15,714 nt of DNA from Chloroflexota bacterium (GTDB lineage Bacteria; Chloroflexota; Ktedonobacteria; Ktedonobacterales; JACDGC01): assembly GCA_021812265.1 (NCBI GenBank), contig JAKAOI010000009.1:1-15714 (forward strand), written 5' to 3'. Below, in pieces: positions 1 to 11,994 of the stretch. Below the pieces are notes generated by a model. The model had not been told where the DNA came from. It saw only the letters and a program-made list of their open reading frames with translations, and made no database searches. The first letter of the stretch is position 1, and each line of letters begins with the position of its first letter. A program made the position numbers and the translations under genes.

Positions 1-262
1 TATTGCCACAGGATGGGATATTCCCACTGGTCTGTATATCCCGAGTACTCTCAGCACCTTACCAGGCTACCCTGCGTATGTTGCGTTTCAGCATTGGATT
101 TCGGTGACATGGGATACGAATGGCGGGTCCACGGTGTACTATGCCGATCCAACCTATAATTCCCCTTTCTACACGAGTGCGAATGGTTGGAATACACCAG
201 GGCCATATGCCAATACTCCTACCAGTAATATGGCTCAATATGTCCCATTCTACCTCTGGTAG
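1..262 (+). CDS. C39-like (papain-like) peptidase family protein, C-terminal part
   Basis: This open frame enters from the left edge of the window and runs 86 codons to a TAG stop at 260-262. The 5' part of the gene lies outside. The visible protein has a His in 'AFQHWISVTWD' followed about 18 residues later by Asp in 'YYADPTY'. This is the spacing of the catalytic His and the Asp (or Asn) region in the C39-like peptidase fold (Peptidase_C39_2). The catalytic Cys would lie upstream and cannot be seen. The tail is rich in Tyr, Asn, Thr and Pro, which suits a secreted or surface protein. It ends 76 bp before the lipoprotein start, so the two may be co-transcribed. The family call rests on a short fragment and is moderate. 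Confidence 0.55.
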   Translation, partial: IATGWDIPTGLYIPSTLSTLPGYPAYVAFQHWISVTWDTNGGSTVYYADPTYNSPFYTSANGWNTPGPYANTPTSNMAQYVPFYLW

Positions 263-287
263 ATCAAAAAGTATAGATTCAAAAATA

Positions 288-320
288 AAGGAGGTCGCTG
301 GAGCCTGTTCAACAGGTTCC
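288..320 (+). promoter_or_regulatory. Strong Shine-Dalgarno followed by hairpin, upstream of lipoprotein gene
   Basis: AAGGAGGT (288-295) is a near-perfect Shine-Dalgarno sequence, but the nearest in-frame ATG is at 339, about 44 nt away. Between them lies an 8-bp stem (GGAGCCTG / CAGGTTCC, one G-T pair, loop TTCAA, 300-320). Folding the hairpin would shorten the effective distance to roughly 23 nt. The real initiation mechanism is unclear. Confidence 0.35.
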
Positions 321-338
321 GGCGATTCGTACAAAGAG

Positions 339-1538
339 ATGAAATGGTATTTTCGCTTTACTGTGCTCTGTGTCGTGATGCTGTCCGGATGCTCCAGTTC
401 GACTGGAATCGGGAGAACAGCCACAGCGACTCCTACTACGCTTCTTCCTACTGCAACACCAACGCCTATCTCTATCAATCTGACACCTTTACCTGCTCAA
501 GATGCTTGGGGAAATGTTAATATCACCCAGTTTTCTCTCGATATGGGAGATCGTTACTTTGAAGCTATACCGAATTATAATGGCATTACCGACGATGATC
601 AGGTATGCGGAGTGACTGTTCCCATGAACTCATCATATGGAACGGACAATTCACAGTTTATGGCATCGGTTGGGTTGCTCAACTTGCATACAGGAAAGAT
701 TACCTTGCTCACCACTCTTCCCGCCGGAGATCAATCGTGGGATTGTACTGTCACAGGTTCCTGGGTAATCTGGATACAATCATTTGGCAATACATTAGAA
801 AGCTTAGCCGTTCATTGGGTCATCAAAGCGATCAATCGAGACACAGGCGAGATTCGCGTGATTGATCAGGCGAAAGGCGCAGATGGACAAGGACAATTTG
901 TATCCATCAGACCCAATCCCTATGCCAGCAATGGGCGGGTTGTCTGGACAACATATTCATCGGATATCCCTAATGGAACACAGTCAGAGATGTACACATT
1001 TAATACCAGCACAAAAACCGTTCTTGCAGACAATACCTCATATCCAATCCTATCCTGGCCTTGGGTCACATGGGGAGATGGAAAACAAAAAGCCATCGTT
1101 TGCGAGAATCTGGAAACGGGGCAGCAAGTACTGCTTCATATGCAGTATATCCCTACGACAACCGCTTTTCATGGAACGACGTTTGTGTATACAAATAGTG
1201 ACTATTCCCAAGTTCTAATATATCCAGACATCACCGATCCATCTCTTCCATCGTATGTGATTGAAGATAAAAGCATCGATGGAGACAGTTTTAGCGAATT
1301 TCCTACAATAAACAACCGTCTTGTTTCCTGGGTTTCCGACACCACATCTTTGGTTTTTGACCGCAAGTTGATGCGCCAGGTAATAGTTGATTCGTCAAAA
1401 ATTCCTTTTGCTGGTGTTGTATCCAGTCATTTTTTGATATCAGAAGCTCCCCTTACTCAGGCAGATCATGACGCTTCAGTGAAAGGGCTTCCGTACCATC
1501 ATGTGATCAGGATTATCGATACCGATACGTTGCCATAG
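339..1538 (+). CDS. Lipoprotein with Thr/Pro linker and beta-propeller-like domain
   Basis: This is a 399-residue protein of unknown function. The chosen ATG at 339 gives a clean lipoprotein signal peptide: basic start (MKWYFR), hydrophobic core, and lipobox LSGC with the lipidated Cys at residue 18. The open frame extends upstream to 120, but that part overlaps the C39-like gene and would bury the signal peptide. Residues about 26-52 form a Thr/Pro/Ala-rich linker typical of Chloroflexota surface lipoproteins. The rest has repeated short units with W-V-x-W (for example SWVIW, WPWVTW, LVSWV) and 'D..T..G..' turns. These resemble the TolB or WD40-like beta-propellers used for surface binding. 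No catalytic motif was recognised. It probably sits on the outer face of the cytoplasmic membrane. The propeller assignment is inference from repeat texture. Confidence 0.75.
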   Translation: MKWYFRFTVLCVVMLSGCSSSTGIGRTATATPTTLLPTATPTPISINLTPLPAQDAWGNVNITQFSLDMGDRYFEAIPNYNGITDDDQVCGVTVPMNSSYGTDNSQFMASVGLLNLHTGKITLLTTLPAGDQSWDCTVTGSWVIWIQSFGNTLESLAVHWVIKAINRDTGEIRVIDQAKGADGQGQFVSIRPNPYASNGRVVWTTYSSDIPNGTQSEMYTFNTSTKTVLADNTSYPILSWPWVTWGDGKQKAIVCENLETGQQVLLHMQYIPTTTAFHGTTFVYTNSDYSQVLIYPDITDPSLPSYVIEDKSIDGDSFSEFPTINNRLVSWVSDTTSLVFDRKLMRQVIVDSSKIPFAGVVSSHFLISEAPLTQADHDASVKGLPYHHVIRIIDTDTLP

Positions 1539-2440: not shown

Positions 2441-4462
2441 ATGAATATTCTATCAGACTTACATGAGGGTTTTCCTGCATCAATGACTTCTCAGTCTTTT
2501 ACACTGCTTTTCGAGGAATGCGCCGAATATATGGACTCGAAAGTGTTGGATGTTGTATTGCTTGCCTTTGAGGTTGCGGATGAAGCGCATGCCGGCGTGT
2601 TTCGCAAATCTGGTGAGCCTTATATTGAACATCCGCTGGCTGTTGCGCTGTGGCTCGCAAAACTTCGTGTCGGATTTGAGTGTATTGCGGCGGCGTTGTT
2701 GCATGATGTGGTTGAAGACACTGATGTTTCACTGCAAAAAATTCGCAATAAGTTTGGCTCTGTAATTGCCCGGCTGGTAGATGGCGTTACAAAATTCGAC
2801 GCAGTAGACCAAGCCGATATTGAGGATGAAATTGTTCGCGCCCGAGTTAAAAAACAAAATCAACAGGCCGAAACATTCCGCAAATTACTGCTTACCATGG
2901 CCGAAGATCCTCGCGTAGCGCTGATTAAGCTTGCCGATCGCTTGCATAACCTGCGCACGCTAGATTCTATGCGCTCCGAAAAGCAATTAGCTATTGCTCG
3001 GGAAACTATGGATATTTATGTGCCTCTGGCTGATAGACTGGGTATCAGTGAAGTGAAATATGAATTACAAGATATTGCGTTTAGATATTTGCACCCTGCC
3101 GAATATAAACAATTAACCGCATGTATTGCCGAAGAAATTGAACGTAAAAAAGAAAATACAACTGCCGCTATTAAAGCGATAGGGCAGGTGCTTGCGCGCA
3201 GCCATCTGCAGGTTGAAGTGCTTCCTCAATATAAACATGGGTATAGCGTATACCGCAGCTATCATACCGCGTCTATCGATATGAGCGAGGTACGGGACCT
3301 GATAGTGTTTCGGGTTATTACACAATCGCTTATTGATTGCTATTCTGCGCTTAAGGCTATTCATAGCCAGTGGGCGCCTATTGATTCGCGTGTGCGCGAT
3401 TTTATTGGCACTCCTAAGTTAAACGGATACCGCGCGTTGCATACAACTGTTTTTGGATTTGATGGCTTTTTTAATGTGCAGATTCGTACCCGAGAAATGC
3501 AGAAGCTTGCTGATTTTGGGCCATTGATTGCCTATACTGAAAAACAGCTGCAAGAAGATAAATCGCAATCATTAAACTGGATTCGGCAAGTGCAGTCGTG
3601 GCAGCAGGAAATGTCTCTTTCCGCGTTAGATTTTATTGAAACTGTGCGGGATGATATTTTTAAAGATCAGATTTTTGTGTTTACTCCAAACGGCGAGGTT
3701 ATTAGTCTGCCAAATGGATCTACCGTGCTGGATTTTGCCTATAAAATTCATTCGGATTTGGGCAGCCACTGCGCCGGCGCGCTGATTTCATCGGGAAACG
3801 CCGATGAACATATGGAAGATCGCGGTTATAAGATTGTTTCCGGTGATATTATTCGTATTTTAAAAGATAACACGATTACTCCTACGATCGATTGGATGTC
3901 TTTTGCTAAAACAAAACATTCCCACGACGCAATCGAAAAATATCTTCACGAACATCATATTACTGCCGATTCTCCCACCGAACAGATTGCTATGGATACT
4001 AAAAAGATTCATTTGTGTATGTATTGTGAGCCTAATCCCGGCGATGATTTGATTGCAACTATCCGCGGACGCTATATTACGGTACATCGAAGCAAGTGCC
4101 GTTTTGTTCTTATGAATCAATCTCGCTCCAACGCTTCACGTTCTGCCTCTGCAAAAAAAACCTCTTCTTCTGTACAAACACAAATCACTTGGCGTATTGC
4201 TCACCCGCCTTGCTACCGCGTTACACTGAATATCTATGGACAGGACCGCACCGGTCTGATATATGATATTGCAGATGTGCTGGCTAAAGAAAGTATTAAT
4301 ATCATCCGTTCCGGCGCTAAGGCAATCGGAAGCTTAGTGAAAGCGTTGACAACGGTTACGATTGAAGTGCGCGATCAGGCGCAGCTCAATCATGTAATAA
4401 ACAGGCTGCTTTGGGTACAGGGGGTTGTTCACATTCAAAGAAAAGACTGCGTTGCGCATTAA
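2441..4462 (+). CDS. spoT: RelA/SpoT homologue 1: (p)ppGpp hydrolase type with damaged synthetase site
   Basis: This 673-residue protein has the full long-RSH layout. It has an HD hydrolase domain (about 40-200), a synthetase domain (about 255-370), TGS (about 408-472), a zinc-finger-like region (C526, C529, H549, C553) and a C-terminal ACT domain (about 590-668). The hydrolase residues are all present: R55 and H64 in RKSGEPYIEHP, H88-D89 and E92-D93 in HDVVED, and D166 and N170 in KLADRLHN. The synthetase domain keeps K265, S269, D286 and the PKLNGYRALHTTV loop. It has lost the nucleotide-binding Arg of GRxKH (Q263), the Glu of EIQIRT (N345) and the HWxYK motif. It is therefore predicted to break down (p)ppGpp but not make it. 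The start at 2441 has only a weak ribosome binding site (ACGGA). The second RSH gene follows 218 bp downstream. The family is certain; the activity is inferred. Confidence 0.93.
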   Translation: MNILSDLHEGFPASMTSQSFTLLFEECAEYMDSKVLDVVLLAFEVADEAHAGVFRKSGEPYIEHPLAVALWLAKLRVGFECIAAALLHDVVEDTDVSLQKIRNKFGSVIARLVDGVTKFDAVDQADIEDEIVRARVKKQNQQAETFRKLLLTMAEDPRVALIKLADRLHNLRTLDSMRSEKQLAIARETMDIYVPLADRLGISEVKYELQDIAFRYLHPAEYKQLTACIAEEIERKKENTTAAIKAIGQVLARSHLQVEVLPQYKHGYSVYRSYHTASIDMSEVRDLIVFRVITQSLIDCYSALKAIHSQWAPIDSRVRDFIGTPKLNGYRALHTTVFGFDGFFNVQIRTREMQKLADFGPLIAYTEKQLQEDKSQSLNWIRQVQSWQQEMSLSALDFIETVRDDIFKDQIFVFTPNGEVISLPNGSTVLDFAYKIHSDLGSHCAGALISSGNADEHMEDRGYKIVSGDIIRILKDNTITPTIDWMSFAKTKHSHDAIEKYLHEHHITADSPTEQIAMDTKKIHLCMYCEPNPGDDLIATIRGRYITVHRSKCRFVLMNQSRSNASRSASAKKTSSSVQTQITWRIAHPPCYRVTLNIYGQDRTGLIYDIADVLAKESINIIRSGAKAIGSLVKALTTVTIEVRDQAQLNHVINRLLWVQGVVHIQRKDCVAH

Positions 4463-4464
4463 TT

Positions 4465-4476
4465 GCCGGCGCCGGC
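4465..4476. repeat. 12-bp GC palindrome after the first RSH gene
   Basis: GCCGGCGCCGGC is a perfect palindrome starting two bases after the stop codon. There is no U-tract behind it, so a classical intrinsic terminator is unlikely. The rest of the 218-bp gap shows nothing clear until the TATAGTAT box. Confidence 0.4.
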
Positions 4477-4653
4477 TGCGCTGCTATTGAATGAAAGAGA
4501 TATGCAATAGTGTTCTTATGAAGCGCTGTATAAAATTATTATGGGATATGTATCATCGGGTGAAACGCTGCAATCCTCAACAAAAGCCAATAGTGATATT
4601 TTGTATATTTTGGCAAGCGCGCCGCGTAAAATAATTTATAATCTCTACGAAGA

Positions 4654-4664
4654 TATAGTATACT
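4654..4664 (+). promoter_or_regulatory. Candidate promoter of the second RSH gene
   Basis: TATAGTAT (4654-4661) overlaps a second -10-like string, TATACT (4659-4664). With TATACT, a 17-bp spacer places TTATAA (4636-4641, four of six matches) at -35. The leader would be about 10-16 nt. This suggests the second gene can be transcribed independently of the first. Confidence 0.35.
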
Positions 4665-4680
4665 AAGATTGGAGGCGCCT

Positions 4681-7170
4681 ATGGATTTAGAAAATGATTT
4701 TTCTGTTCGGGATGAGGGTTTTGCTTTGCCCCTGTCGATGGAACAAAATTTTGATAACACTATGGCAATCGAGGCAGAACGCAAGGAAACGCCGCAACAA
4801 AATTCTGCTGTGGGAACTCGCCGTATCTACGACAGTACAGTACAATCTATTTTGGCCAAATACCTTCATCCCGAAGAGCTTTTGGAAATTCAGCGGATTT
4901 GTGATTTTGCTGAACGATATGATCCAGCCGCCGAGTTTTTTGCGCCAATGCGCGATATTGCCATTATTTTAGGAGAAATGCGTGTCGATTCTATGGGAAT
5001 TTCGTGTGGCGTTTTGCAATATATAGCCATTGATCCCATAGAAAATACGATCAAAGAATCGGTAAAAAAACAAATAGAAGAAGATTTTGACGTAGAATAT
5101 ATCTTATTGCTGGAAGGTATTGCCTATTTTAACGCTATTCAAAATCGCAAAGGGAAAAATGTACAAAGCAAACCAACAAAAAATGATAAAGAACAAGTAG
5201 CCCGTAAAACATTAAAACGGCGTCAGGCGCAAAGCCATATGCTGCAAATTGAAACCATCCGTAAAATGTTTATCGCTATGGGCAACGATCCGCGCATCGT
5301 TATTTTTAAAATAGCCGAACAAGTTTTACGTATGCGCAAAATACGCCTGAATGATCCCGACGCTCGGCTCATTGCATCCGAAACCCGCGATATATATGTG
5401 CCGCTGGTCAGCCGGTTGGGTATTTCTCACTTTGAAACAGAATTGGAGGATCGCGCCTTTGAAATTCTGGAGCCGGATGAATATCGCAAAGTTACCAATT
5501 TGGTGTCCCAATTTATTGTAGAGCAGCATGGCTATATCGATCGTGTTTGCGCTATTTTGCAAAAAGAAGCCGAAAAATCTGACATTATTACCCATGTAAG
5601 CGGACGCTATAAACATTATTACAGTATTTACCGTAAACTGCTCCGCAACGATTGGAATATTCGCCAAGTATATGATCTGCTGGCGTTTCGCGTGATTATA
5701 GATCCATACGATAAAACCTTGGAGGATACTTTAACTGCACCGGAAAAAATCGATTTGGAGAAAAAAGCGGTAAATAACTGCTATGCTATGCTTGGTTTTA
5801 TTCACGCCATGTGGGTTCCCAAAGAAGATCGCATTAAAGATTATGTTGCCATGCCCAAGCCCAATGGCTATCAGTCGTTGCATACAACAGTTTTCTGTGA
5901 ACAAAATCAACTCGTGGAAATACAGATTCGCACCCGCAAAATGCACGAAGACGCCGAATTTGGCTTTGCTATGCACTGGCATTATAAGGCGGTGGGGGAT
6001 TCTGCTGCGCCTGATAAAAAATTGCATTCATGGCTGGATCAATTGCATAATTGGCAAAGTGAACTCGATCAGCGCGCTAAACCCGAAAAAGAAGTTTCTG
6101 CGTCAGCCGATAGCTCCAATGATTTTACCCGTGTTTTTATTTTCAGCCCACGCGGTGATGTATTTGATTTTCAAAATGGCGCCACACCGGTAGATTTTGC
6201 TTATCGCATTCACACGAATTTAGGCGATCATTGCGCCGGCGCAAAAATCATCTCTACAGTTTCCGGCGCGCCATTAAAATTGGTGCCGCTGGATTATAAA
6301 TTTAAAAATGGCCAAATCGTGGAGATTATGACCCGTAAAGATGCGCATCCCACACGCGACTGGCTTCATTTTACCGTCACACCCAGCGCGAGATCGCATA
6401 TTAACCGATATCTGAAACAGCAGGAACGAGATATCAATATTACCATTGGCCGAGAAAAGCTGGAGATTGAGGCAAAATTTCGCAGTTTGGGTTCTTTGGC
6501 GGAAATTGGTGACCAAGTTTTACGCGAAGTTGCTGAATCGTATAATTTTACCTCGATTGAGGATATGTTTGAAGGTATTATTACAAAAAGCGTATCTTTG
6601 TCGGGTATAACCCAAAAAATTCAAAATCTCTTAAATCTCGCCGAACCCCTGAAAAAAATCCCAACACCTGATGTTGTCAGCACAAAAGTAACTCGCGGCG
6701 GTGAATTGGTGGTTTCGGTGGGCAATCAGGGCGGATTGCTTGCGCGTTTGGCAAATTGCTGCCATCCATTGCCGGAAGATCCTATTGTCGGTTTTATCAG
6801 CCGTGGCAAAGGTATTGTTATTCACCATTCGCTGTGTAAAGGGTTGCGCAGATTAAAGGATTCGGATCAAAAACGTATTATAGAGCTGGATTGGGGAAAA
6901 AATGAAATTCATCATTTCGATGCAGTTATGATGATTTTGTCGGAAGACCGAACGGGCTTGCTGCGTGATGTTACTCAGGAAGTGCGTGATATGAAGATTA
7001 ATATGGGGGCAACAAGTTCATCTGTAAACCGGAAAAATAATGTTTCAACCATTCTATTAACATTGCAGATTGAGTCGGTGAAGCAATTTTACGACGCAAT
7101 GAACCGTATTCGAAATATTCCCGGTGTTTTGGAAGTAAAACGTGATGAACGAAGCCTCATTGCCTCGTAA
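4681..7170 (+). CDS. relA: RelA/SpoT homologue 2: (p)ppGpp synthetase with dead HD domain
   Basis: This 829-residue long RSH starts at ATG 4681, because GGAGG (4671-4675) sits 5 nt before it. An in-frame TTG at 4669 lies upstream but overlaps that site. The synthetase domain (about 300-440) looks complete: GRYKH (308-312), S315, D332, RIKD (384-387), PKPNGYQSLHTTV, E413 in EIQIRT, and HWHYK (432-436). About 20 extra, charged residues (about 341-364) interrupt it. The HD domain is ruined. HDxxED reads Q113-Y-I-A-I-D118, KLADRLHN reads KIAEQVLR (E213, R217), and the upstream RKSGEPYIEHP is absent. TGS (about 483-552), the zinc-finger region (C693, C694, H695, C719) and ACT (about 745-822) follow, as in ribosome-sensing Rel proteins. 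It should make (p)ppGpp on stalled ribosomes but be unable to remove it. The family is certain; loss of hydrolysis is a strong inference. Confidence 0.95.
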   Translation: MDLENDFSVRDEGFALPLSMEQNFDNTMAIEAERKETPQQNSAVGTRRIYDSTVQSILAKYLHPEELLEIQRICDFAERYDPAAEFFAPMRDIAIILGEMRVDSMGISCGVLQYIAIDPIENTIKESVKKQIEEDFDVEYILLLEGIAYFNAIQNRKGKNVQSKPTKNDKEQVARKTLKRRQAQSHMLQIETIRKMFIAMGNDPRIVIFKIAEQVLRMRKIRLNDPDARLIASETRDIYVPLVSRLGISHFETELEDRAFEILEPDEYRKVTNLVSQFIVEQHGYIDRVCAILQKEAEKSDIITHVSGRYKHYYSIYRKLLRNDWNIRQVYDLLAFRVIIDPYDKTLEDTLTAPEKIDLEKKAVNNCYAMLGFIHAMWVPKEDRIKDYVAMPKPNGYQSLHTTVFCEQNQLVEIQIRTRKMHEDAEFGFAMHWHYKAVGDSAAPDKKLHSWLDQLHNWQSELDQRAKPEKEVSASADSSNDFTRVFIFSPRGDVFDFQNGATPVDFAYRIHTNLGDHCAGAKIISTVSGAPLKLVPLDYKFKNGQIVEIMTRKDAHPTRDWLHFTVTPSARSHINRYLKQQERDINITIGREKLEIEAKFRSLGSLAEIGDQVLREVAESYNFTSIEDMFEGIITKSVSLSGITQKIQNLLNLAEPLKKIPTPDVVSTKVTRGGELVVSVGNQGGLLARLANCCHPLPEDPIVGFISRGKGIVIHHSLCKGLRRLKDSDQKRIIELDWGKNEIHHFDAVMMILSEDRTGLLRDVTQEVRDMKINMGATSSSVNRKNNVSTILLTLQIESVKQFYDAMNRIRNIPGVLEVKRDERSLIAS

Positions 7171-7798: not shown

Positions 7799-9175
7799 TT
7801 AGAAGTTTAGGTGAGGAAAGACGGTTAAAACACCATACACTACTCCGGTTAAAGAAATAAAAACTACAATTGCAATTGCTATGACATTTGTTATAACGCT
7901 ATTATAGCTGCGTTTCATAATTTCGCGGTCATTGGCCAGCAACAGAACGAACAGCAAGGCTGGCGGCATAGCAAGAGTTGCAATGACGTTAACAATTAAA
8001 GCAATATATTCCAGCGGCGCGTTAGGCGTCAGTACGATGACTGCCGCAAGGACTGCGCTGGAAAAAATAATGGCGTAAAATGGCCATGCTTCTTTTACAG
8101 GTCGATTTAAGCTGTGCGGCTTGGCGGTAATTTCACCAAAGGCATAGCCGGATGATGAAGATATGGTGATAATTGCCACTAAACCGGCTTCAAAAATACC
8201 CAACGCAAACAACGCCGCGCCCCAGCGGCCAATAATTGGCTCTAGCGCTTGCGCAAACTGCGCGGCGGCAAAATTTTGCGCGCTAATATGCCGAGCAAAG
8301 AGCGGCGCTGCAGCTATAACTGCCGCAATGCCGCCAATTGCGGCTAAAATTGCTCCGACGGCAATATCGCGCCGTCCTGCCGGTATATCTTCGGTAGTTA
8401 GGCCTTTATCGGCCACAGCGCTTTGATGGAAGTACAGCATCCAAGGGGTAACTGTGGCTCCGATATCGGCCATCATTAAAAATAAAACTTTTTGCGAAAA
8501 CCCTCCGGGAAGCGGATTCCAAAATAGCAACGCATGCGCGGTTTGGCCTAGATTGGGATGCGTCATCAGCGCAACCGGCACAAATACTAAGTTAAACACT
8601 GCCAGCCCTAATGTAATGCGTTCCCATGTCCAATATCTTTGGGTAAGGCTAACACCGACAACTAGGCCGAGCGCCAAAATTACGGAAAAAACAGCGGAAA
8701 TATTGAAAAAACCTAAACCTGCGCGAACGCCGATAAATTCCGTAACTAAGGTGAGAAAATTGCCGAGCAGCAAATCTCCAATGGCAAACCATCCCCAAAA
8801 TGAGCCAAAGCGATCAAAGATTAATTGCGCATGGCCTTGGTGTGTTGTGGCGCCGATACGCAGCGTCATTTCCTGCACGATATACGCCATAAAAAAGGTA
8901 AGCAGCACAAACGGGATAAAAAATCCAACACCAAAGGTTGACCCAGTTGCGGCGTAAGATAACATGCTGGGCGCGTCATTTTCACCCAGCATCACCAATA
9001 CTCCGGGGCCGATAAGCAGCCAGAAAAGCAATAAAGACTTGTTTTTTCTCTGGCTGGATTTAATTTCCTGAACTTTTCTGCGATCGATTGCGCGCTTGCG
9101 ATCTTCGATATTTATTTCTTTGGGAAAGTGATTAACCGCCATATATTCTATCCGCCGTCTTCTTGTTTTAACCAT
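7799..9175 (-). CDS. Divergent NRAMP-family metal transporter
   Basis: This 458-residue membrane protein has a charged N-terminal tail of about 45 residues and about 11 hydrophobic spans. The NRAMP signature is recognisable but altered. In span 1, GPGVLVMLGENDAPS aligns with the usual GPG...DPGN, keeping Asp67 but giving Ser70 where Asn binds metal. In span 6, GATVTPW replaces GATVMPH, so the metal-binding Met is Thr243 and the His is Trp245. These changes recall the NRAMP subgroup with a 'G-x-ND-A' span 1 and 'TPW' span 6, and the NRAMP-related Mg transporters that also lack the Met. The start at 9175 overlaps the repressor stop by 8 bp (ATGGTTAA), which suggests translational coupling. A second ATG at 9142 would shorten the tail. 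Context suggests Mn or another divalent metal. Family sure, substrate open. Confidence 0.9.
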   Translation of the reverse strand: MVKTRRRRIEYMAVNHFPKEINIEDRKRAIDRRKVQEIKSSQRKNKSLLLFWLLIGPGVLVMLGENDAPSMLSYAATGSTFGVGFFIPFVLLTFFMAYIVQEMTLRIGATTHQGHAQLIFDRFGSFWGWFAIGDLLLGNFLTLVTEFIGVRAGLGFFNISAVFSVILALGLVVGVSLTQRYWTWERITLGLAVFNLVFVPVALMTHPNLGQTAHALLFWNPLPGGFSQKVLFLMMADIGATVTPWMLYFHQSAVADKGLTTEDIPAGRRDIAVGAILAAIGGIAAVIAAAPLFARHISAQNFAAAQFAQALEPIIGRWGAALFALGIFEAGLVAIITISSSSGYAFGEITAKPHSLNRPVKEAWPFYAIIFSSAVLAAVIVLTPNAPLEYIALIVNVIATLAMPPALLFVLLLANDREIMKRSYNSVITNVIAIAIVVFISLTGVVYGVLTVFPHLNF

Positions 9176-9881
9176 CTTTTGATGGTGTGTCAGCGGATTG
9201 CACCAAAATCATACTGCTGGTTCTGGGGCCGATATGGTGTTCTTGGTGATTTACTTTTACGGTATAAATGTTATCAAATGGAGAAAGCGCAATAATTTGC
9301 AGTACAGCGCCGGGCTTAACCCCGATGGAAATAAGATATTCAACCAGCGCAGGCTCATCATCAATGATTCTTTGCACGGTAACTATTCTGCCCGGTTCCA
9401 CACTATTTAACGGCTGGTTAAATTGCTGTATTACCTGCCCAAATTTATTAGGGATAGGATCCCCGTGAGGATCTTCGGTTGGAAATTTCAGCATTTCATC
9501 CATTCTATTAACAAATTTTTCGGAAATTGCGTGTTCCAGTTTTTCTGCTTCGGCGTCTACCTCATTCATAGGAAAATTCATAACTTCAACAAGAAAAGTT
9601 TCCAAAAGCCGATGTTTGCGAATTAATTCTGTAGCCAACACCATACCGCTTTCTGTCAATTCAACACCATGGTATGGCTCATAATGCGCATATTCATATT
9701 TGCTTAACAATTTAAATAACTGTGTTACTGTTGCGTCACTTAATTGCCCGCTTGGTTCAATATGTTTTAATTTATCGCACATTGTGGATGTTGAAATTTC
9801 CTCATTCCGCTCTTTCAGTTTGTAGCAGATTTTCAGACAATCTAAAACACGAATTGGCAATAAAGTTGTATCTGGCGCCAT
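9168..9881 (-). CDS. mntR: DtxR/MntR-type metal-dependent repressor with FeoA-like domain
   Basis: This 237-residue regulator has an N-terminal winged helix (about 1-78), a dimerisation and metal-binding domain (about 80-145) and a C-terminal SH3/FeoA-like domain (about 158-228). Metal-site residues by alignment with DtxR and MntR are H90 and E94 in RKHRLLE, then E113, E116 and H117 in EAEKLEH. The family motif DPHGDPIP is at 137-144. Glu at 113, where DtxR has Cys, matches the Mn-responsive MntR pattern. D109 replaces the His of DtxR. With metal bound it should repress its own operon and so control the NRAMP gene, which it overlaps. The start at 9881 is supported by AAGGAG 8 nt before it (9889-9894 on the plus strand). 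Mn specificity is inference. Confidence 0.92.
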   Translation of the reverse strand: MAPDTTLLPIRVLDCLKICYKLKERNEEISTSTMCDKLKHIEPSGQLSDATVTQLFKLLSKYEYAHYEPYHGVELTESGMVLATELIRKHRLLETFLVEVMNFPMNEVDAEAEKLEHAISEKFVNRMDEMLKFPTEDPHGDPIPNKFGQVIQQFNQPLNSVEPGRIVTVQRIIDDEPALVEYLISIGVKPGAVLQIIALSPFDNIYTVKVNHQEHHIGPRTSSMILVQSADTPSKDG

Positions 9882-11214: not shown

Positions 11215-11994
11215 ATGATTTTATTTTTTAGTGTTATGACAGCCTTGCTCAGCTTTATTGCAGTTATTTTTTTGGTTGATCAATTTATGTACAAGCCAAA
11301 AGCCTACAAAGTTGTATGGGCTATTGGCTTGTTTGTATATGGTGTGGCGGGCTTGGCGCAGACTTTTGCAGTATCCAGTCATTGGACACTCATGGAATAT
11401 CGTGTATGGTTTTTAACCGGAGCTATTCTTGCGGCTCCATATTTAGGCATGGGCACTTTTTATTTGCTCGGCCCCAAAAAATGGGCTAATGGGCTAATGA
11501 CAGTCATCGGCGCATTCTCACTGTATGCGTTGTATCGCACACTAACGGTTAGCCTTACATCGGTTTCAGGGATTCCGGCAAACGAAACACCGCAGCAATG
11601 GATTACTACAGCGTCATTCGATGCGGTAGTAAACACCGGGAAATATTCTATCATGCCGAATGATATTGTTTTTGTCATTATTGTCCTTAATTCACTCGGA
11701 GCGCTTACGCTAGTCGGCGGCGCCGCTTGGAGCGCATGGAAGCTTTTCCGCACGCATCAAAATGGCAATCGCTTTATTTCTATGGTACTTATAGTTATTG
11801 GGGGGTTGGCTCCTACTGCAGCCGGAACCCTTACAAAAAGTGGAGTCAGCGGAGCGTTTTATCTGCTTACCTTTGTTGGCGCGCTCTTTTTGCTGGCCGG
11901 CTACTTGGTAAGCATAGATGTTGCTACTGTGTTTCGCGTGCCGTTTACCAAGAAAATACTCATAAACAGGGAAAGCGCCGCTGTGAGCAAATAG
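11215..11994 (+). CDS. Seven-span integral membrane protein of unknown function
   Basis: This 259-residue protein has a very good ribosome binding site (AGGAGGT, 11203-11209). Seven hydrophobic segments are seen at about 2-22, 33-52, 62-84, 90-110, 150-174, 186-206 and 213-233. A longer polar loop (about 112-148) lies between spans 4 and 5, and the short C-terminal tail is basic. No family motif was recognised. The upstream flank has a 9-bp direct repeat, CCGATTTTT, at 11181 and 11194. A strong hairpin (12016-12042) follows the gene and the MFS gene starts soon after, so the two may or may not be co-expressed. Confidence 0.8.
   Translation: MILFFSVMTALLSFIAVIFLVDQFMYKPKAYKVVWAIGLFVYGVAGLAQTFAVSSHWTLMEYRVWFLTGAILAAPYLGMGTFYLLGPKKWANGLMTVIGAFSLYALYRTLTVSLTSVSGIPANETPQQWITTASFDAVVNTGKYSIMPNDIVFVIIVLNSLGALTLVGGAAWSAWKLFRTHQNGNRFISMVLIVIGGLAPTAAGTLTKSGVSGAFYLLTFVGALFLLAGYLVSIDVATVFRVPFTKKILINRESAAVSK

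Follow-up and report, generated by a model that had tools for sequence, protein, structure and literature searches.

A Tandem Pair of Long RSH Genes with Complementary Predicted Hydrolase and Synthetase Specialization in a Class of Chloroflexota

The RSH Pair and Its Domains

The window analyzed here, a stretch of 15,714 nucleotides (nt) from contig JAKAOI010000009.1 of a Chloroflexota metagenome-assembled genome (MAG; 80% complete, 469 contigs), carries two neighboring genes of the long RSH family (Rel/RelA/SpoT), RSH-1 and RSH-2, on one strand at 2441–7170 (table 1). Both proteins have the Pfam domain order HD_4, RelA_SpoT, TGS, and ACT_4 that places them in this family, and BLASTP aligns them over 490 columns with 30% identity. 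Judging from their sequences, we think it very probable that these are tandem paralogs from the duplication of a bifunctional Rel within the class, RSH-1 being a predicted hydrolase with a pseudo-synthetase domain and RSH-2 a predicted synthetase with a pseudo-HD domain, and that together they do the job of one Rel.

The start of RSH-2 is most likely the ATG at 4681, because a GGAGG sits just upstream of it, and not the TTG at 4669, which would give a protein of 833 amino acids (aa); database entry P0123 matches the ATG-start protein in length (829 aa). A promoter and terminator scan returned 16 and 6 sites, respectively, against 16.4 and 6.2 expected, which is chance level. The structure model of RSH-2 is poor (mean pLDDT 71.1, pTM 0.49, with values below 50 at 427–483 and 485–546) and is used solely for its fold match to RelA.

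Table 1. Features of the RSH pair and of neighboring regions in the window
Feature	Position	Strand	Basis or remark
RSH-1 gene, 673 aa; predicted to hydrolyze (p)ppGpp, with a pseudo-synthetase domain (long RSH)	2441..4462	+	Open reading frame, translation, Pfam, residue table
RSH-1 HD_4 hydrolase domain, all eight residues (R55, H64, H88, D89, E92, D93, D166, N170)	2564..3046	+	PF13328, 6.2e-51
RSH-1 RelA_SpoT domain, degenerate	3230..3520	+	PF04607, 1.2e-22
RSH-1 N345 codon	3473..3475	+	
RSH-1 TGS domain, residues 411–475	3671..3865	+	PF02824
RSH-1 ACT domain, residues 592–667	4214..4441	+	PF13291; YC in place of the ZFD CC motif between TGS and ACT
Intergenic gap RSH-1/RSH-2, 218 nt	4463..4680		Promoter-like matches at chance level
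RSH-2 gene, 829 aa from ATG; predicted to synthesize (p)ppGpp, with a pseudo-hydrolase domain (long RSH)	4681..7170	+	
RSH-2 degenerate HD_4 domain, with QYIAIDPIENT (from 5017) and with E at column D144 and R at N148	4948..5424	+	PF13328, 2.3e-19
RSH-2 RelA_SpoT domain, full synthetase set (GRYKH, D264, E323, HW columns)	5602..5991	+	PF04607, 2.3e-35
RSH-2 TGS domain; RelA H432 equivalent retained	6133..6333	+	PF02824, residues 489–555 of TTG-start protein
RSH-2 ACT domain; CC motif and a helical domain of 105 residues retained upstream of it	6913..7143	+	PF13291, residues 749–825 of TTG-start protein
Nramp-type metal transporter gene adjoining DtxR-type regulator gene	7799..9881	-	Past the 3' end of the RSH pair, in convergent orientation
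Short TnpB-like fragment, 227 aa	10351..11034		OrfB_IS605, Cas12f1-like_TNB
Open reading frame of 472 aa; may not be a gene	120..1538		No Pfam match

Active-Site Residues

Residues are numbered by reference to the Rel of Streptococcus equisimilis (1vj7), aligned with HMMER and counted by hand; a MAFFT residue table is concordant. In this alignment, which an earlier note on the same DNA had proposed as a check, R44, H53, R241, D264, and E323 of Rel pair with R55, H64, Q263, D286, and N345 of RSH-1, respectively. The note's description of RSH-1 as a protein with all HD residues (8/8 in HMMER and MAFFT alike, with motifs LHDVVEDT and ADRLHN), with Q263 for R241 and N345 for E323, and without the HWxYK motif, where IAYTEK stands instead, is borne out. 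It had correctly read the loss of the Arg, the Glu, and HWxYK but omitted that the catalytic carboxylate D264 is retained as D286; K304, Y308, H312, Q325, and R327 are retained as well.

RSH-2 has the complete synthetase set and a broken HD site, with a gap at R44 and the replacements H53 to P, H77 to Q, D82 to N, D144 to E, and N148 to R. The full set and E213/R217 in place of the Asp/Asn pair agree with the earlier note, whose numbering fits a count from the ATG. Its reading of QYIAID for HDVVED stands in that the HD site is broken; that reading is ungapped, however, and gapped alignments (BLASTP, MAFFT) match D78 and E81 with the D and E of IDPIEN. RSH-2 may retain these two of the eight HD residues; the other six are lost under gapped or ungapped alignment alike. 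We abandoned K versus D at column 297 as a means of telling Rel from RelA, given that D is found in 8 of 14 bifunctional references.

Distribution and Linkage of the Pair

Our class sample comprises 47 genomes, every one in the order of the window's genome; we infer the class to be Ktedonobacteria, and Thermogemmatispora and Ktedonobacteraceae names occur among the relatives of RSH-2. In this survey, of the kind that the earlier note had called for, the pair is present in 44 of the 47 genomes, with RSH-1 first and both genes on one strand, and is therefore not peculiar to this MAG. Four of the pairs have a partial RSH-1 beside RSH-2, cut short by a contig end (G003, G022, G032, G041), and in two RSH-2 runs off the contig (G004, G020). 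A contig scan with P0001 gave one locus (L033) in a Chloroflexi MAG, and a plasmid search with RSH-2 gave 67 records, all below 60% identity.

The phylum sample comprises 251 Chloroflexota genomes that are at least 85% complete, 33 in the class and 218 outside it. RelA_SpoT matches number one in 203 of the non-class genomes, none in 2, and more than one in 13; in these 13 the matches lie on different contigs, share a frame (G177), or occupy abutting frames that are apparently one broken gene (G262). No adjacent RSH pair was found in the 218 genomes, although a pair split by a contig end could escape.

Some genomes of family f2 encode additional small HD_4 proteins (frames of about 185–280 aa), and the additional long RSHs of f2 are specialized in the same way as the pair: those of G042, G045, and G043 (among loci L082–L085) are RSH-1-like with an intact HD site, and that of G036 is RSH-2-like (578-aa frame). 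A further RSH of G017 (L080) has an intact synthetase set, a degenerate HD domain, and a long branch outside the class clade.

In 7 of 10 pairs of family f4, a start codon is found within RSH-1, 4 nt from its end, a possible 4-nt overlap that may allow translational coupling; gaps elsewhere reach about 640 nt. This overlap, together with the position of the hydrolase gene first, would suit a toxin–antitoxin-like module in which RSH-1 checks a toxic alarmone maker, RSH-2, as in toxSAS systems with a hydrolase antitoxin. We regard this as very improbable, given that the pair occurs in nearly all class genomes, where it apparently replaces the housekeeping Rel instead of accompanying it, and that both proteins are long RSHs of full length with tails that sense ribosomes, whereas toxSAS proteins are short.

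Complementary Conservation and Selection

Residue counts for RSH-1 exclude 3 of the 44 rows as unreadable (G022, G032, G041). All eight hydrolase residues are present in 41/41 readable RSH-1 rows and 0/43 RSH-2 rows, and the 14-residue synthetase set is whole in 43/44 RSH-2 rows and 0/41 RSH-1 rows, the sole incomplete RSH-2 row being that of G040, which is cut by a frame break. We do not use Y249 as an argument, as it varies in bifunctional rows; the RSH-1 count is still 0/41 when it is set aside, since H342 is lost in every RSH-1 row. The pattern of a Rel[HS] protein, with both sites whole, is found in none of the readable rows (0/41 for RSH-1, 0/43 for RSH-2); it is found in the Rel of G007 and in 11/11 single Rels of the outgroup, with Y249, which varies among them, excluded. 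By sequence RSH-1 corresponds to the hydrolase-only SpoT[Hs] type, less strongly in f2, where both E323 and D264 remain, and RSH-2 to the synthetase-only RelA[hS] type, with the synthetase domain whole and the HD site lost.

The same complementarity extends beyond the active sites. RSH-1 rows keep 97–99% of the 30 HD positions that are invariant in the 14 bifunctional references, and RSH-2 rows keep 39–43%; for the 33 invariant synthetase positions the values are 92–96% in RSH-2 and 65% (f1), 76% (f4), and 82% (f2) in RSH-1. Mean identity between families is 0.52 for the HD and 0.40 for the synthetase domain of RSH-1, 0.29 and 0.60 for those of RSH-2, and 0.53 for each domain in single Rels outside the class. 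Among 780 usable pairs, the HD domain is better conserved in RSH-1 than in RSH-2 in 760, and the synthetase domain of RSH-2 is better conserved than its HD domain in 778.

These degenerate domains could be decaying leftovers, or one gene a pseudogene, as residue loss varies by family in a drift-like manner and the reading frame is broken in two RSH-2 genes, that of G040 and, in its 5' part, that of G020. (The G040 gene, at L073, is spread over three frames, either a real break or an assembly error.) Such decay is extremely unlikely, as no frame break was seen in the available sequence of the remaining 42 of 44 pairs and dN/dS is 0.02–0.36 in the 55 of 60 values that were computable over 10 genome pairs, pseudo-domains included, with several dS near saturation; these values point to purifying selection on both genes, including the pseudo-domains.

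Ancestry of the Pair

Our main maximum likelihood tree has 55 rows, which represent 21 of the 44 pairs and leave out G028, the third copies, and Escherichia coli RelA. The RSH-1 and RSH-2 proteins of the class and the Rel of G007 form one clade in it (100/100), within which RSH-2 (100/99), RSH-1 of f1 and f4 (100/99), and RSH-1 of f2 (100/100) are clades. A wider quick tree, from which seven short fragments were removed (including three pieces of the G040 RSH-2), places all class RSHs in one clade except one third copy (G017). As the class RSHs form one clade, we conclude that the pair arose within the class. The relatives outside it mostly have one RSH, and the 11 single Rels examined keep both sites.

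Transfer of RSH-2, for example, of a proteobacterial RelA, to a place next to a native Rel whose synthesis was subsequently lost is suggested by ribosome-bound RelA being the top Protein Data Bank match of RSH-2 by sequence and fold. This match carries little weight, since RelA is also the top fold match of RSH-1, and the 100/100 clade stands apart from the other Chloroflexota Rels and from E. coli SpoT (in both trees); in the quick tree it is also apart from E. coli RelA (SH-aLRT 100). With E. coli as the sole representative, the class RSHs do not group with proteobacterial clades, and we see almost no likelihood of a transfer. Duplication followed by subfunctionalization, as the earlier note had suggested, is instead well supported by the single clade, the mostly single bifunctional Rels outside the class, and the complementary conservation.

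The Rel of G007 (family f3, L040), a single protein with both sites intact, is nested among the duplicated copies. A clade of RSH-1 and RSH-2 without G007 is weakly rejected (p-AU 0.029), so the G007 line may never have had the pair or may have lost one copy.

Differences among Families

The division is not uniform, and several observations weigh against our reading of the pair. Three class genomes lack the pair: G002 (80% complete) has no match, G007 (96%) has one bifunctional Rel, and G028 (58%) has one RSH-2-like gene. The free tree does not unite RSH-1 in one clade, though such a clade is not rejected (p-AU 0.26), and RSH-2 is not recovered as one group in a quick tree of the C-terminal domains alone, whose 220 columns are too short for branching order. 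The synthetase domain of RSH-1 is better conserved than its HD domain within f2 (0.784 and 0.710) and equally conserved within f4 (0.622 and 0.619); among the 780 pairs, the RSH-2 synthetase domain exceeds that of RSH-1 in only 546, and the RSH-1 HD domain exceeds the RSH-1 synthetase domain in only 491. Finally, D264 is kept in 41/41 readable RSH-1 rows, and E323 is kept in all 27 rows of f2.

The retained D264 and E323 (27/41) and the well-conserved f2 synthetase domain would fit an RSH-1 that is mainly a hydrolase with weak synthesis, like E. coli SpoT, so that the split is not clean. We find this unlikely, since H342 is lost in 41/41 RSH-1 rows, R241 is kept in just 10/41 (nine of f4, plus G004), and E323 is replaced in 14/14 readable rows of f1 and f4 (by N or D in f1, by Q in f4). 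PMC13299517 reports that E323Q in RelSeq abolishes synthesis. R241 is lost in 4/5 rows of f1 and is W or S in 27/27 of f2, where G240 and H342 are also altered. As f2 RSH-1 keeps E323 and D264, it may still synthesize weakly. The term "cleanly divided" in the earlier note accordingly suits f1, which is the window's family, together with f4: both have lost the catalytic Glu, and the split is firmest there and well supported by sequence; for f2 the term lacks such support.

The families differ as well in the helical domain between TGS and ACT, which is mostly lost from RSH-1 of f1 (32–36 residues; 32 in the window) and f4 (40–76 residues); it has 105–130 residues in the uncut RSH-2 rows compared and 107–127 in RSH-1 of the 12 f2 genomes compared.

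Predicted Roles of RSH-1 and RSH-2

We propose that a bifunctional Rel duplicated inside this class of Chloroflexota, that RSH-1 became a hydrolase whose synthetase domain would now be a structural or regulatory pseudo-domain, and that RSH-2 became a synthetase whose HD domain would now be a pseudo-domain. During starvation RSH-2 would make (p)ppGpp through its intact TGS–helical–ZFD–ACT tail, and RSH-1 would remove it. Rel and RelA sense starved ribosomes, and RSH-2 probably does so as well, because TGS, the helical domain, the CC motif, and ACT are all retained. RSH-1 of f1 and f4 is likely a ribosome-independent hydrolase, because the helical domain is lost and, in the window's family, so is the CC motif of the ZFD (YC in G000 and G001); hydrolysis by Acinetobacter baumannii SpoT is described as insensitive to ribosomes in PMC9974481.

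The earlier note also envisaged an obligate couple in which the first gene protects against the product of the second, and we likewise suppose that the two genes may be expressed together and may need one another, given the linkage kept in 44 of 47 genomes and the possible overlap in f4. In the window's MAG and in G001 we found no further RelA_SpoT or HD_4 protein; RSH-1 would therefore be their sole hydrolase of this family, and its loss while RSH-2 is active would be expected to be harmful there, as with spoT in relA+ E. coli, which PMC9974481 describes as conditionally essential in that background. The need for RSH-1 may be weaker in the f2 genomes that have further small HD_4 proteins.

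More tentatively, the pair may work across the class as an alarmone on/off module whose two parts are physically coupled. The RSH-1 pseudo-synthetase and the RSH-2 pseudo-hydrolase would then have turned into regulators, perhaps by bringing RSH-1 and RSH-2 into contact, and RSH-1 would have finished losing synthesis independently in two ways, through the ATP site with E323 kept in f2 and through the catalytic Glu with loss of the helical domain in f1 and f4. We are cautious in this speculation and would sooner doubt it than rely on it.

Gene Neighborhood of the Pair

We compared neighborhoods by using eight neighbors of the pair in the window as queries. Four of them (Nramp, DtxR, the open reading frame at 11215, and MFS) recur at the pair of G001 (L034), which is of the same genus. 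At other loci only an M16 peptidase (L041), TnpB relatives (L037, L051), and a partial Nramp match (L085, a third-copy locus) were found. Beyond the genus, most window neighbors were not detected at the loci with the pair, so the linkage of the pair outlasts that of its surroundings.

Mn2+ is the HD cofactor of RSHs; that Nramp- and DtxR-type genes lie beside the pair may be a coincidence. The relatives of the TnpB-like fragment are on L037 (G004) and, weakly, on L051. The open reading frame at the left end of the window has no relative in the compared loci.

Comparison with Known RSH Systems

E. coli RelA resembles RSH-2 in having lost its HD site and differs at the K297 column, with D instead of the K of RSH-2 rows; E. 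coli SpoT, unlike the prediction for RSH-1, keeps weak synthesis, and relA and spoT are at separate loci. Rel and RshB of Bacteroidia likewise include a lineage-specific second copy with a diverged HD domain, but both proteins are listed as [HS] in PMC3153485. In FaRel/ATfaRel, a toxSAS with a small alarmone hydrolase antitoxin, synthetase and hydrolase genes are also neighbors; these are described as small proteins of toxin–antitoxin operons (PMC11782079), and neither RSH-1 nor RSH-2 is a small single-domain protein.

The closest parallel is SpoT[Hs]/RelA[hS] of the Moraxellaceae, which PMC3153485 and PMC9974481 describe as divided in the same way: a full-length hydrolase-only RSH with a pseudo-synthetase domain (A. 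baumannii SpoT, 7qpr) accompanies a synthetase-only RSH with a pseudo-HD domain, as is predicted here from sequence. The adenosine-site Arg is lost in both hydrolases (R249 to K240 in A. baumannii SpoT, PMC9974481; R241 here in f1, 4/5 rows, and f2). In A. baumannii SpoT the catalytic Asp is gone as well (D272 to S263), whereas RSH-1 keeps it; here, moreover, the genes are adjacent, and the hydrolase of f1 and f4 is without most of the helical domain. PMC3153485 lists Chloroflexi with Rel[HS], names the Moraxellaceae as the case of complete subfunctionalization, and has no mention of Ktedonobacter (0 occurrences of "ktedonobacter"); our searches of open-licence PMC papers, preprints excluded, found no paper on this pair.

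The literature examined names one proteobacterial family in which bacterial long RSHs completely separate (p)ppGpp synthesis from hydrolysis. If our reading is true, the Chloroflexota pair adds a second case of independent origin, kept as a tandem throughout a class, in which a single-Rel relative (G007) and families with different routes of loss let a RelA/SpoT-like division be compared and tested, and it offers paired mono-active enzymes for the study of regulation by pseudo-domains. The division of labor would then be the same as in the Moraxellaceae, but in another phylum, from a separate duplication, in tandem, and nearly class-wide.
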